Shown here: one piece after another, positions 1-5,038 of the stretch
Position numbering within the stretch: the stretch's first letter is position 1
Layout of the letters: every line of letters begins with the position of its first letter
DNA from: Gramella sp. Hel_I_59
Lineage (GTDB): Bacteria; Bacteroidota; Bacteroidia; Flavobacteriales; Flavobacteriaceae
NCBI RefSeq assembly: GCF_006714895.1
Contig: NZ_VFME01000001.1
Span: 1,798,001 to 1,862,000 of the forward strand
Reading direction: 5' to 3'
DNA length: 64,000 nucleotides
Position numbers and translations under genes: made by a program
Notes under the pieces: generated by a model
What the model was told of the DNA's origin: nothing
Database searches by the model: none
What the model saw: only the letters and a program-made list of their open reading frames with translations

Positions 1-495
1 AATTCACAGGTGCAACTTCCTAAAGGTGCTGGTCCAAGACATTTAAGCCTGAGTAGAAATGGAAATTTCGTTTATAGCATGAATGAGCTGAATTCTACAG
101 TGACCACCTATAAGGTTTTAAAGGGTGGTGCACTTGAAATTGTACAAACTCTTAGTTCCTTGCCAGAAAGTTATCTGGATAAAAATTCTGGAGCGGATAT
201 TCATATAGGCAAGGATGGAAAATTTCTTTATGCCAGTAATCGCGGTCATAACAGTATCGCTATATTTAGTATAGATCAGGTTAACGGAAAACTAAAGAAT
301 GTTGACTTTGTTCCGGTAGCAGGAAAGACACCTCGAAACTTCGCCATATCTCCTTTCGGAAAGTATTTATATGCCGCCAGCCAGGATACTGGAAATATAA
401 CTACCTACACGATCAATCCTGAAAATGGAAAATTAAAGATTCAGGAACCGATTTTTGAGATTAAAACTCCGGTTTGTCTGGAGTTTCAGAAATAA
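1..495 (+). CDS. 6-phosphogluconolactonase-like beta-propeller (3' part)
   Basis: The frame is open from base 1, so this is the C-terminal part of a longer gene whose start lies outside the window. It encodes repeated blades of the lactonase (YbhE/Pgl, PF10282) beta-propeller type, seen as recurring G-x-F-x-Y-x-x-N/S strands such as GKFLYASNRGHNSI and GKYLYAASQDTGNI. Family members hydrolyse 6-phosphogluconolactone in the oxidative pentose phosphate pathway, although many Bacteroidota copies act on other sugar lactones or are uncharacterised. Whether a signal peptide exists cannot be told from this part. A strong hairpin terminator follows directly. Confidence 0.8.
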   Translation, partial: NSQVQLPKGAGPRHLSLSRNGNFVYSMNELNSTVTTYKVLKGGALEIVQTLSSLPESYLDKNSGADIHIGKDGKFLYASNRGHNSIAIFSIDQVNGKLKNVDFVPVAGKTPRNFAISPFGKYLYAASQDTGNITTYTINPENGKLKIQEPIFEIKTPVCLEFQK

Positions 496-500
496 AAAAA

Positions 501-524
501 AGCAGCCAATTGGCTGCTTTTTTT
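501..524. terminator. Bidirectional intrinsic terminator
   Basis: AGCAGCC-AATT-GGCTGCT is a perfect hairpin with an A-run before it and a T-run after it. It can therefore end both the rightward lactonase gene and the leftward M14 hydrolase operon, whose last stop codon is at 525-527. Confidence 0.9.
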
Positions 525-1436
525 CTATACGTCCTGTACAACAAAGAAACCATCGTTTCCCTGTGACTGGTATAGTGGCATGAAAATATAAGCATCCCAT
601 TCGCTATAAACTTTCTCGCCGTTCTGTTCGGCTATTAGTTCGCCTTTTTCAATTTTCTGAAAGTTCTCATATCCTTCCTTCATTTTGAAAGTATCTCCAT
701 CCTCCAAACCATGGCGATGAATTATTTCGAAGGTCTTTTGATCTGGAGCATTCTTTTTACTGAACCTTTCCACACACTCCGGATAGGTGGAGATTTCGGA
801 AAGATCTAATTTATTTGCTTCCTTCAGAGCTAACCAGATCACCCCTTCGTGATTTTCTTCCGAAGTATCATCTGTATGTTGACCAGCTTCGAATACAAAA
901 CCAGTCATTCCAGTTCTACTTAAATAATGGTCGATGTCTCCCGTAATAATATCACTAAAACCTCTAATGATATATGTCGGAAAATTATGCGCCCAATCGT
1001 CATTATCGTTCACTTCCTGTACCGAAACATAGGGTAAACTTGCAGATGAGGTGGTATGGCAATCCAGAAAATACTTTTTCGTATGTTCCTTTTCAGAATA
1101 CTCATTTAGTACCTTAATGATCTCGAACATTTCTTTTTGCTCATGAGTTTGAGGTTCATTTTTTTGAATATTTTCTTCTGTCCAGGTTCTGTTGAGGTCT
1201 TCGTCTATATAACGTTTGTTCTCATTCAGTGCTTTCTGATTCCCTGAAACTCCAACAATTTTACCCTCAATCTCAGGTTTGGTTTTATCCAATTGTTTAA
1301 AAACTTCCTTCAGGGCGAATACACCACTTGGTTCATTTCCATGAATTCCAGCTGTCACGAATAATAACGGGCCGGGTTTTCCTGAAGAATATTCTCCTAT
1401 GATCCTGTCTACGTTCTCTTCTAGCTTCTCTTTCAT
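525..1436 (-). CDS. Aspartoacylase/succinylglutamate desuccinylase-like metallohydrolase
   Basis: A 303-residue M14-clan zinc hydrolase of the AstE/AspA type. Visible signature: GIHGNEPSG with zinc ligands H32 and E35, DLNRTW (N82-R83, substrate carboxylate binding), LDCH with third ligand H127, and FEAGQH near residue 182 carrying the probable catalytic Glu. Family enzymes release an acyl or amino-acid group from an amide with a free carboxylate. There is no signal peptide, so it is cytoplasmic. It is the last gene of a leftward operon, 4 bp after the ATP-grasp gene. The surroundings have no arginine-degradation (ast) genes, so the AstE reaction is unlikely. The substrate is unknown and probably related to the product of the ATP-grasp partner. 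Confidence 0.85.
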   Translation of the reverse strand: MKEKLEENVDRIIGEYSSGKPGPLLFVTAGIHGNEPSGVFALKEVFKQLDKTKPEIEGKIVGVSGNQKALNENKRYIDEDLNRTWTEENIQKNEPQTHEQKEMFEIIKVLNEYSEKEHTKKYFLDCHTTSSASLPYVSVQEVNDNDDWAHNFPTYIIRGFSDIITGDIDHYLSRTGMTGFVFEAGQHTDDTSEENHEGVIWLALKEANKLDLSEISTYPECVERFSKKNAPDQKTFEIIHRHGLEDGDTFKMKEGYENFQKIEKGELIAEQNGEKVYSEWDAYIFMPLYQSQGNDGFFVVQDV

Positions 1437-1440
1437 AAAA

Positions 1441-2487
1441 TTAATCCATTGTGGCCAGAGTCCTGTTGCTCAACTGACCTTTATACATATTTTTATACTC
1501 AACTTTTCTTTCGATCGCCTCGATAATATAATCTGTAAAAGGCGAAAGTCCGATATCCTTGAAATGTTCCATTCCACCCGGGCTTAGTACATTGATCTCG
1601 ATCAATTTATCTTTAACGATATCAAGTCCCACAAAAAATAATCCGTCACGAATTAATTTAGGTGCTGTAAGATCAACAATCCGTTGCATTTCCGGAGTTA
1701 GCTCACTGCTATCTGCTGTAGCTCCAAGACTGAAATTGCTACGGAATTCTCCTTCGCCTGCTACTCTTCTAATAATTGCTTTTTCGCCGTCTCTTTCCAT
1801 GATTTTACCATTTAGTAATAAGACACGTACATCACCATCTTTGACATCTGGTAAAAATTCCTGTGCGATTACGTATCCCTGAGAGCTTAAATGATCGATA
1901 ATCTGGTTGGTATTTTTCTCATGTTCATCTATAAGATATACATCCTGTCCTCCTGAACCTTCCAGGGGTTTCAGGACCATTTTTTTATTCTGTTTCTCCC
2001 AGAAATCTAAAAGTTGATCCTTGTCTCTTGTAATTATAGATGCAGGTTTGATTTCCTGAGGTAACTCTTCGAAATATAATTTATCAATAAACGCATGGGA
2101 TAGGGCATAGGCATCATTTAAAACCAGAACATCCAGTTGCTGGATCATTCTTCCAAATGCGACACCAGCCTGCTCAGCCCATTGTCTTCCTTCTTCTTCG
2201 GTAGGATTATTTCTAATAAAAAGAACATCCAGTATCGTGCAATCAATTTGTTTTTTTATAGCCTTTGGACCCTGCAAAGCTTCCAGAAACTTCTTAGTAG
2301 ACTTGGTTTTAGTATCCTTTGGTAATTGAGTAGAATTTATTGTGATAGGTTTATCATGGTGGAAGTTAAAATCTCCAACACCCATTGCATAAACTTCATG
2401 ACCTCGTTGATGAGCCATCTGCATTAGCGCGTTCGATGTACCATCTTTCTCTGTTGCGACATCATTTAATACAAAACATATTTTCAT
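1441..2487 (-). CDS. GshB/RimK-type ATP-grasp ligase
   Basis: A 348-residue cytoplasmic ATP-grasp enzyme most like prokaryotic glutathione synthetase. It has an N-terminal pre-ATP-grasp Rossmann domain (MKICFVLND), the ATP lid strand VLKPLEGSGGQDVYL, the RVLLLNGKIM strand, an Arg-rich substrate segment (AIIRRVAGEGEFRSN) and the Mg-binding GLDIVKDKLIEINVLSPGG. Family enzymes join a carboxylate to an amine using ATP through an acyl phosphate. No gshA is present and this genome carries bshA (bacillithiol), so true glutathione synthesis is doubtful. Its ATG overlaps the stop of the upstream QEGLA gene (ATGA), which implies translational coupling. It most likely makes a peptide-like or amino-acid-tagged product handled by the two flanking hydrolases. 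Confidence 0.85.
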   Translation of the reverse strand: MKICFVLNDVATEKDGTSNALMQMAHQRGHEVYAMGVGDFNFHHDKPITINSTQLPKDTKTKSTKKFLEALQGPKAIKKQIDCTILDVLFIRNNPTEEEGRQWAEQAGVAFGRMIQQLDVLVLNDAYALSHAFIDKLYFEELPQEIKPASIITRDKDQLLDFWEKQNKKMVLKPLEGSGGQDVYLIDEHEKNTNQIIDHLSSQGYVIAQEFLPDVKDGDVRVLLLNGKIMERDGEKAIIRRVAGEGEFRSNFSLGATADSSELTPEMQRIVDLTAPKLIRDGLFFVGLDIVKDKLIEINVLSPGGMEHFKDIGLSPFTDYIIEAIERKVEYKNMYKGQLSNRTLATMD

Positions 2488-4334
2488 TTACATACCATTT
2501 GTGGAAGGCTTAAACCATTCCTGATTAATTTCAATTTTTCGAACATTTGTTCACTATGTAGAAACCGGGGTTTTATCCTTAGCGGTTCCAAAACTTTTCT
2601 GTCTGTTAATTCCCGAATTATATTCGTGTGCTTGATTCCGTATTTACCGGCTAGCAGAATCTCATAATCATCATTATTCTTAAGGTGTTCTTTTAGTAGA
2701 ACAAGTCCCTTTAAATAAATTATGTCTTTGATGAAACCACCGCCCTGCATAATTCGGGAAGTAATATTGAAGGCCCTTTCCGCAGAAAAACCATAATCCA
2801 TTTTTAGTAATCTGAATATTTCCTGGAAATTCGCACCTTCTAAAACTGCCTGTCCTGCCAGTACTCTTCCAGCAAGTATTCTAAGTCTGTTTGCTGTAAG
2901 ACCATCAACCATAAATTCAGACATTACGGCCAGACCTTCCTGTAGGGGATCATAATCTGCCAGGCCAATGCTTAATTGTTTTAGCGGTTGCCTGCTTCCA
3001 TTGTAATGCGTGAGCACATGCGTTCCAACTTCGTGCTGAATGAGTGCTTCGGCCTCAATACGGCTCATTTCATAATCTGCAGGAATGTATAATTCTCCAT
3101 GCGAAACCATCATTACGTTCACATCTTTCCGAATATGAACCTTGCAATTGAAGTTTTCATCCTGCTCTTTGAAATAATCAAATTCCTTACGAGCTAGACT
3201 ACTAAATGCTTTCGCGTCAAGAATATCATTCGATTCGCTATAAGTTTCTTCCGGTACTTCATTAAGAATATTCTGAGCCTCTTCGCATAATTGTCGATCT
3301 ACTCCCTTATAGAGACGAATACTATCATACATAAAATTACTTGATCCGCGTTCACCTAGCATGGTGATTTGCATATCCAGTTCCTCACGTTTTTCGCGAA
3401 ATAGATAGGACATGGCAGGATCGTCAATATCTTCGATCTTTAGATTGTACAGTCTGCGCTTTAAAATATCTGGATCAACCGGCAGCAGTCGATAATGATA
3501 ATCCAGCACATTCTGGTATTCACTTTTAAAGAACTCTTCCTTGATCTCATGAATATTTGCAGGAGATACCAGCCAGAGGAATTGATATGATTTTTCAATA
3601 TCTGCCAGCTGCTTATCAATATCAAATACGACCTGCTTTAAATATTTTCGTCCCAGCGCATTAAAGCTTGCTACGCCGCCCGTAGTTTGTACCCTAATAA
3701 AATCAAAGAATGACCTATGCATAGCTTTGATCAGGAAGTCCTTGAAATTCCTGAAAAATACTGGGTATAATTTATTATTCTCATTCCTATAAACTGGAGG
3801 AATTTCAAGGCTTACCAGAACAGCACCGCAATTCTTAGCTTCCTCAATACTCATAAGATCTTCGGAATCTTCCGCATGCCTGTGTATGGTATCCACGATC
3901 TCTGTATCCAGATAAAGGCCGGTAAAAACTTCATTTATGGTTAATAGATCCTTCTGAAGGGTTTCCAGACTGGTAGGAAGTTTTTCAGCAGGACCCTTAA
4001 TACGTAATTTCTGAGAGTCGTCGGCTCCCGCATAGATCTCGAATAACAGATATGATTTCATTTCTACTGAAAGCAGATTGGAAATAGCGATCAGTAATTT
4101 TTGATAACCGGCAAAATCTGAATTTCCGATAACCATATAAGAAGATTCACTGGTAATAAACCTTTTGGTGCCTTTATCATTTGACTTTTTACGGTAGATG
4201 ACCAGGTAGGGTAATTCTTTTTCAATATGCAAAATCCCCATGCCGGGAAGCATACAGCTTATCTCCTTATTTTCTTTAAGAATTGTTAAGATTTGTTGAA
4301 TGGAATTTTCAGATAGATCAGGTATTTCCTGCAT
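2484..4334 (-). CDS. DUF1704 / QEGLA-motif HExxxH metallohydrolase
   Basis: 616 residues, the first gene of the leftward three-gene operon. The C-terminal half contains HEVGTH (H434, E435, H439) followed about 27 residues later by QEGLA (E466), the metal-binding pattern of the DUF1704 family (TIGR02421, 'flavohemoglobin expression-modulating QEGLA motif protein'). The eukaryotic relatives are the KIAA0895/MATCAP tubulin carboxypeptidases, so a C-terminal peptidase or amidase role is a reasonable inference. The bacterial name about flavohemoglobin describes no reaction. No signal peptide or membrane span is seen. The N-terminal ~200 residues are not recognised. A short imperfect inverted repeat (4361-4383) lies upstream in the promoter region. 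Confidence 0.8.
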   Translation of the reverse strand: MQEIPDLSENSIQQILTILKENKEISCMLPGMGILHIEKELPYLVIYRKKSNDKGTKRFITSESSYMVIGNSDFAGYQKLLIAISNLLSVEMKSYLLFEIYAGADDSQKLRIKGPAEKLPTSLETLQKDLLTINEVFTGLYLDTEIVDTIHRHAEDSEDLMSIEEAKNCGAVLVSLEIPPVYRNENNKLYPVFFRNFKDFLIKAMHRSFFDFIRVQTTGGVASFNALGRKYLKQVVFDIDKQLADIEKSYQFLWLVSPANIHEIKEEFFKSEYQNVLDYHYRLLPVDPDILKRRLYNLKIEDIDDPAMSYLFREKREELDMQITMLGERGSSNFMYDSIRLYKGVDRQLCEEAQNILNEVPEETYSESNDILDAKAFSSLARKEFDYFKEQDENFNCKVHIRKDVNVMMVSHGELYIPADYEMSRIEAEALIQHEVGTHVLTHYNGSRQPLKQLSIGLADYDPLQEGLAVMSEFMVDGLTANRLRILAGRVLAGQAVLEGANFQEIFRLLKMDYGFSAERAFNITSRIMQGGGFIKDIIYLKGLVLLKEHLKNNDDYEILLAGKYGIKHTNIIRELTDRKVLEPLRIKPRFLHSEQMFEKLKLIRNGLSLPQMVCK

Positions 4335-4520: not shown

Positions 4521-4548
4521 AAAAAAGCCTTCCATGAGGAAGGCTTTT
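4521..4548 (-). terminator. Terminator of tRNA-Arg
   Basis: AAAAGCCTTCC-ATGA-GGAAGGCTTTT hairpin just past the 3' end of the tRNA on the minus strand, followed on that strand by a T-rich run. Confidence 0.85.
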
Positions 4549-4550
4549 CG

Positions 4551-4624
<74 letters not shown>

Positions 4625-4759: not shown

Positions 4760-5038
4760 TTAGCTTTCTCTGATCAATTTTTTTTCAAGACCATCTGCAG
4801 CAACTACTAATTGGTGTAGTAAACTTGGATTTGCATCCATTTTTTCAAAAACCTGTATGTATAAATGATTAAACCTTCTTATTAATTCGAGTGTTTGAAG
4901 TGAAACACTGAAAAAGTTTCCTGATTCACGAAGTTCTTCAATAGAGTTCTTTACAGATTCGATATGAGAAACTTCTTCTTCGGTACTTTGGATGTAATGT
5001 TCTTGCTGTAGCATACCATTAGTTATTTGGTTAGCCAA
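4760..5038 (-). CDS. Small protein of unknown function (92 aa)
   Basis: I do not recognise the family. The protein is predicted to be helical and acidic in its first half (STEEEVSHIESVKNSIEELRE), with heptad-like spacing and no signal peptide, membrane span or cysteine pair. It stands alone between tRNA-Arg and the divergent LAB_N gene. The region 5039-5279 serves as a shared divergent promoter region. Length and composition look like a real cytoplasmic small protein, but only conservation would show it. Confidence 0.55.
   Translation of the reverse strand: MANQITNGMLQQEHYIQSTEEEVSHIESVKNSIEELRESGNFFSVSLQTLELIRRFNHLYIQVFEKMDANPSLLHQLVVAADGLEKKLIRES

Follow-up and report, generated by a model that had tools for sequence, protein, structure and literature searches.

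The 64,000-nucleotide stretch of Gramella sp. Hel_I_59 analysed here (contig NZ_VFME01000001.1, positions 1,798,001 to 1,862,000, called the window below) comes from a genome present as a single contig of 3.44 Mb. On its minus strand, at 525-4334, it carries three open reading frames (ORFs) encoding a MATCAP (DUF1704) protein of 616 amino acids (aa), a GshB-like ATP-grasp ligase of 348 aa and an AspA-like hydrolase of 303 aa. MATCAP and the PRK12458-type ligase are the core of a system that recurs in other genomes, with AspA standing outside the general system: the second hydrolase is interchangeable and is either an N-formylglutamate amidohydrolase (FGase) or, as here, AspA. We see an even chance that the operon is a cassette for the writing and cutting of amide bonds, in which ligase and hydrolases would run a cycle on a carboxylate.

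The operon and its three proteins

Genes 1 (2484..4334) and 2 (1441..2487) share an ATGA stop/start overlap of 4 bp (2484..2487) and a spacing of 4 bp precedes gene 3 (525..1436), which agrees with the tight coupling described in an earlier note on this DNA. The same overlap of -4 bp between genes 1 and 2 was found again in 20 of 28 loci of the AspA type. Since this overlap recurs, the genes co-occur across the genus and the catalytic motifs are conserved, the operon is more than a chance arrangement.

The product of gene 1 matches PF08014 (E 3.5e-78, 263.6 bits vs a cut-off of 27) and stays under the cut-off of TIGR02421 (QEGLA; 302.4 vs 338.65); its closest named homologues are from Gramella/Christiangramia. 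In its AlphaFold2 model (pLDDT 88.5, pTM 0.84) the catalytic domain (residues 254-616, 2487..3575, minus strand) shares the fold of human MATCAP. A motif script placed HEVGTH at residues 434-439 (3018..3035, minus strand) and QEGLAV at 465, so that H434, E435, H439 and E466 are where the earlier note had read them, and HExxxH is present in 135 of the 136 MATCAPs examined. The N-terminal domain of this long form of MATCAP (residues 30-216, 3687..4247, minus strand) has the FGase fold in the model, with the zinc motifs missing. These motifs are in place in none of 42 long MATCAPs vs all six fused FGase::MATCAP proteins, and the long MATCAP is carrying a dead copy of the hydrolase type it works with. 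This is best explained by descent from an FGase::MATCAP arrangement whose FGase part is now without zinc motifs, an account which, taken as a whole, we hold to be about evenly balanced. No such dead FGase domain is known from human MATCAP/TMCP1 and TMCP2.

Gene 2 encodes both GSH-S domains (PF02955, E 1.2e-47, and PF02951) and scores above the cut-off of NF009110, the PRK12458 subfamily (435.1 vs 408). Against the sequence of E. coli GshB (1gsa) it gave an E-value of 3.2e-31 and 111.9 bits, and none of the five Pfam families matched at E up to 0.001 belongs to the TTL family.

Gene 3 encodes an AspA/AstE-like zinc amidohydrolase that matches PF24827 (E 4.8e-20, 72.4 bits vs a cut-off of 25) and the AstE structure 1yw6 (E 1.7e-7). 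It shares this domain and the active-site residues with AstE and aspartoacylase but remains under their NCBIfam equivalog cut-offs (67.4 vs 180, 65.7 vs 170 and 57.8 vs 305.65). HGNE at 32 and DCHTT at 125 bear out the residues H32, E35 and H127 that had been read from the M14 protein, and two further motifs, DLNR and FEAGQH, lie at 80 and 182. Across 15 aligned operon copies of AspA the residues H32, E35, N82, R83, H127 and E183 are invariant.

Distribution of the system

The gene neighbourhood was analysed in 247 genomes sampled evenly across the phylum, 15 of which encode a MATCAP (PF08014). The NF009110 ligase is found above its cut-off in 13 genomes and just below it in a 14th (G002, 396.5 vs 408), all of them among the 15 with MATCAP, and the next-best ligases in the 247 genomes reach at most 214.8 bits. 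In 14 of the 15 the ligase adjoins MATCAP or stands a few genes away (Fisher test for the association 6e-22, kinship uncorrected). The third gene differs: an FGase-like gene (PF05013) lies ahead of MATCAP in 11 of the 15 and is fused to it in G045, AspA follows the ligase in the window genome and in G053, and G186 has no third gene. Three separate FGases and the fusion were assigned with Pfam, the rest by sequence clustering. The expectation that all three genes would be co-conserved therefore held for MATCAP and ligase but not for AspA, which belongs only to the lineage of the window, and the idea that MATCAP, ligase and AspA form an obligate triad was rejected, as it fails outside the clade of the window where the third gene is mostly FGase. 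The FGase::MATCAP fusion is widespread, both domains being present in all of the best 120 out of 1062 homologues of the G045 protein. An apparent MATCAP-ligase fusion in G231 (an open frame of 956 residues) was discarded, the matches to MATCAP and ligase being in different reading frames.

Two types of ligase accompany these MATCAPs. Ligase A, 28-30% identical to the window ligase, accompanies either the fused protein or a short MATCAP that stands with FGase, and ligase B (34-43% identical, 72% in G053) occurs with the long MATCAP; in G103 and G118 both are found around a single MATCAP. Among the best 80 of 563 loci with a short MATCAP, whose record titles are mostly from Flavobacteriaceae, 70 have calls for both ligase and FGase. 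At L090 a ligase was found by a whole-genome search, at a position within the contig range of this locus, and L086 is truncated by a contig end.

The system is also present outside the phylum, with a MATCAP match in 127 of 72,556 plasmid records. In the regions that we opened, an FGase, a long MATCAP and a gene annotated as 'glutathione synthetase' or 'synthase' follow each other in Sinorhizobium meliloti, two Aminobacter, Pararhizobium and Roseateles. This FGase-QEGLA-'glutathione synthetase' cassette of rhizobial plasmids and Bacteroidota, for which no joint function is stated in its records, shares with the window the long MATCAP adjoining a PRK12458 ligase, the gene order and the short overlaps; the window differs from it in that AspA stands behind the ligase and a catalytic FGase is missing from the locus. 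In Photobacterium sp. GJ3 and DA100 the ligase precedes a fused FGase::MATCAP (Pfam was run on GJ3 only). In Photobacterium damselae, adjacent 'GshB' and QEGLA genes are up 38.4- and 27.5-fold and RimK 52-fold at the low salinity of 1% NaCl (PMC10308900). By analogy with the two other Photobacterium we infer that this pair may be the same cassette. Our literature search found no paper on DUF1704 with ATP-grasp, on S. meliloti with gshB2, or on N-formylglutamate amidohydrolase with an ATP-grasp or glutathione synthetase operon. Such clusters may already be listed in the 2009 survey in which Iyer and colleagues covered the neighbourhoods of amidoligases, and we claim no priority.

FGase and AspA as the second hydrolase

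Within the lineage of the window, 24 genomes of its genus were compared. MATCAP is present in 20 of them and the AspA orthologue in the same 20, complete in 19 (74-100% identity) and as a fragment of 56 residues at a contig end in G269, a genome that is 67% complete. The other four, one of them 73% complete, have neither MATCAP nor an AspA relative above 37% identity. Together with eight genomes of eight further genera and G053, and leaving out G269, the genus provides 28 loci with the order MATCAP, ligase and AspA. In a tree built from all 50 ligases outside the short-FGase class and a random 14 of the 74 within it, the ligases of all 28 AspA-type loci form one clade (support 0.965) within a ligase-B clade of 40 (0.988). 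An FGase of the operon type (at least 260 bits, fused forms counted) is encoded in 23 of 119 relatives; among the 28 AspA-type genomes of this set only G280 encodes one, next to a second, short MATCAP. At the window locus itself no catalytic FGase was found, as no FGase family is among the Pfam matches of the operon and its neighbours and the N-terminal domain of gene 1 is without zinc motifs. A single replacement of FGase by AspA that was inherited since is the simplest account.

Several observations weigh against the reading of the operon as an amide-bond cassette. The MATCAP domains fall into the same groups as the ligases, but with a support of just 0.30 for the AspA group, and the AspA and FGase profiles show no significant match to each other (hhalign probability 0.3%), so that their equivalence is suggested by position, fold and the register of the motifs. 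In G278 an operon-type FGase occurs without MATCAP, and in L208 and L215 (genomes G280 and G306) a long MATCAP is paired with the ligase with neither FGase nor AspA adjoining, an FGase being present elsewhere in both genomes. Eight of the 80 short-MATCAP loci are without ligase and FGase and no such ligase is found in their genomes (best other match at most 105 bits), which speaks against an obligate coupling, yet MATCAP keeps HExxxH in all eight. MATCAP is also solitary in G186 and as a second copy in G250. Outside the phylum, Vibrio sp. HDW18 encodes a protein of fusion length (41.6% identity to the fusion over 98%) with no ligase alongside, and in two Pseudoalteromonas and in Aeromonas caviae MATCAP stands alone, as annotated or called.

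Separately, at L205 (G275:C14:431000-443000), a locus without ligase and FGase, a short MATCAP has HEIGVN and TQAGLA replacing the zinc motifs and is apparently a dead enzyme. Decay of the zinc motif after loss of the ligase was rejected as a rule, as eight other ligase-less MATCAPs keep HExxxH.

Proposed function and alternatives

FGase, AspA and AstE free an acidic amino acid from an N-acyl group, and ligases of the GshB/RimK type make this type of bond. Eukaryotic MATCAPs cleave Tyr and Glu from C-termini and shorten chains of Glu (PMC10499314). Because of these reactions of the three enzyme types, their shared denominator would be an acyl-amino-acid bond, most likely acyl-Glu. The earlier note had proposed that the operon adds an amino acid or peptide and trims it again, which finds partial support: the families, their linkage, the swap and the loss of the zinc motifs were observed directly, whereas we infer the type of bond, its reversibility, the acceptor, the amino acid, the flux and any protein target. 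In such a cycle the ATP-grasp ligase would activate a carboxylate with ATP and couple it to an amino acid, most likely an acidic one such as glutamate. AspA, in place of the FGase of other lineages, would hydrolyse the acyl-amino-acid amide, and MATCAP would trim a C-terminal residue, either from this product or from one related to it. The dead FGase domain of the long MATCAP probably serves in binding or docking, with the hydrolase activity coming from a separate gene, FGase elsewhere and AspA here. The cell could thereby put a residue on one acceptor and take it off again depending on conditions, for example salinity.

Two further operons of the window genome have a comparable composition. 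In L241 (G000:C1:386000-391500, at 1859-4151) RimB-like (PF05618), RimK and AstE/AspA-like genes are tightly spaced, and in L043 (464-3824, about C1:1924.5-1927.9 kb) a RimK-like ATP-grasp protein of 483 aa, a GCS2 protein of 406 aa and an FGase of 229 aa and of a different type are encoded by genes that overlap or lie 2 bp apart. In G100 (L238:1781-4684) an AspA-like gene, 35% identical to the AspA of the window, is directly behind a GCS2-CBS protein of 645 aa. As these three loci show, the pairing of a ligase with a hydrolase of the AspA or FGase type recurs. In RimABK (PMC11957791) the glutamate ligase RimK, an ATP-grasp enzyme, is likewise paired with a protease, RimB, that takes its additions off again, but RimB is retropepsin-like; no RimB-type protease with RimK is found at the window locus, such an operon being that of L241.

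The salvage of peptides or acyl-amino acids, in which MATCAP and the second hydrolase would release amino acids and the ligase would have a side activity or store dipeptides, appears rather unlikely to us. A dicarboxylate symporter gene (SDF) is upstream in 65 of the 80 short-system loci and also precedes MATCAP in the eight loci without ligase and FGase, which speaks for salvage. The operon of the window is however without a transporter, and the ligase is retained in 14 of the 15 MATCAP genomes of the phylum.

Just as unlikely is a pathway to a glutathione-like thiol or a gamma-glutamyl peptide, with the ligase as a variant of glutathione synthetase and the hydrolases recycling the peptide. 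The two GSH-S domains of the window ligase would suit it, as would the rhodanese-like gene that was called in 16 of the 80 short-system loci (between ligase A and FGase in L085, L108, L112 and others, and also in L032 and L035). One clade-A ligase of the short system even passes a glutathione synthase cut-off of NCBIfam (293.5 vs 272), which weakens the argument against glutathione for the family as a whole. The window ligase, on the other side, is under both glutathione synthase equivalog cut-offs (192 vs 272 and 176.7 vs 299.05), and it has no recognised gshA partner among the families searched, PF04262 and GCS2. It carries RSN and SPGG where E. coli GshB has RGN and SPT, positions that presumably contact the substrates. 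RSN was found in 124 and NV.[ST]PG[GA] in 121 of 126 ligases, a count that includes L041 and L042, which are linked to gshA and like E. coli GshB carry RGN and NVTSPT instead. The statement that no gshA is nearby holds within the window, but the one GCS2-type protein of the genome, that of L043, is encoded 63 kb beyond its end; this protein scores at most 62.8 bits vs GshA cut-offs of at least 176 in NCBIfam. The gshA family PF04262 is absent from all 17 genomes tested including that of the window, and of the 15 genomes with MATCAP in the phylum sample 8 have no GCS2. Classical glutathione synthesis, which had been called unlikely before, is disfavoured by the equivalog scores and by the results for these two families.

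Still less probable is a protein tail code, in which the terminal residue of a protein would be swapped by ligase and carboxypeptidase, much as tubulin is detyrosinated and retyrosinated. The MATCAP domain is homologous to the tubulin carboxypeptidases: with human MATCAP/TMCP1 and TMCP2 (PMC10499314) it has the catalytic fold and the HExxxH...E site in common, at 21% identity over the aligned part. Compared with the tubulin cycle of TTL/TTLL and CCP/TMCP, the window has a GshB-type ligase for TTL and AspA, elsewhere FGase, for CCP. Each of the three Vibrionaceae plasmid records that contain MATCAP also has, ahead of the cassette, a DUF413/MaoP-like gene whose product ends in an acidic tail (L148:3523-3990, L229:5043-5447 and L228:3968-4327). 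Yet these tails end differently (DDDIDY, DNDLDI and LTEED), and a Tyr-ended DUF413 protein is also encoded in Vibrio campbellii, the sole Vibrio record with a MATCAP match in the collection being a different one. We rejected the tail as substrate on these grounds and keep it as a lead only. The window, moreover, has no DUF413-like gene and its ligase is of the GshB type. A wider form of this idea, to which we give the same low probability, is a bacterial tail editing in which the GshB-type ligase would extend a protein or peptide by a terminal residue, MATCAP, guided by its dead FGase domain, would remove it and AspA or FGase would cut the last, differently linked residue, with salinity as one signal; it would be a forerunner of the tubulin code of TTLL, TMCP and CCP.

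A graspetide-like modification of a ribosomal peptide is very improbable, even if ATP-grasp and peptidase genes are the general graspetide layout (PMC8939145): no precursor gene fits in among the three ORFs, and the 92-aa ORF upstream (4760-5038), separated from the operon by a tRNA gene and by a terminator-like hairpin, has its relatives at just 7 other loci among 235.

Flanking features and rejected assignments

Upstream of the operon and outside of it lies a tRNA-Arg gene (tct, 4550..4624, minus strand, ARAGORN), directly followed by a terminator-like hairpin (4522..4549, minus strand) from a consensus scan that gave 4 sites in the region vs 3.8 expected by chance. Between the operon and the convergent gene an A-tract, a palindromic hairpin and a T-tract (494..525, no strand assigned) were read from the sequence; this element is absent from the list of the scan and is likely a bidirectional terminator. 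Since hairpins stand both upstream, after tRNA-Arg, and downstream, the transcription unit probably consists of just these three genes. The 92-aa ORF, for which no family was found above cut-off, and which lies upstream of tRNA-Arg, was rejected as a member of the operon because of its patchy occurrence. A defence system was likewise rejected, the PADLOC models giving no family for any of the three proteins of the operon or for the one FGase tested, as was a phage origin, with a single weak match among 50,697 phage records.

Conclusion

The function of the MATCAP family has been assigned only recently, and in eukaryotes. Bacterial MATCAPs are present at least in Bacteroidota and Pseudomonadota, and because they often accompany a ligase and a second amidohydrolase, the operon described here is a tractable system for finding the substrate of the family and a role other than that on tubulin. 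The swap between FGase and AspA together with the dead FGase domain suggests that the activity needed beside the ligase is that of an acyl-amino-acid hydrolase, and to label these genes 'glutathione synthetase' or 'flavohemoglobin expression-modulating' is probably misleading.

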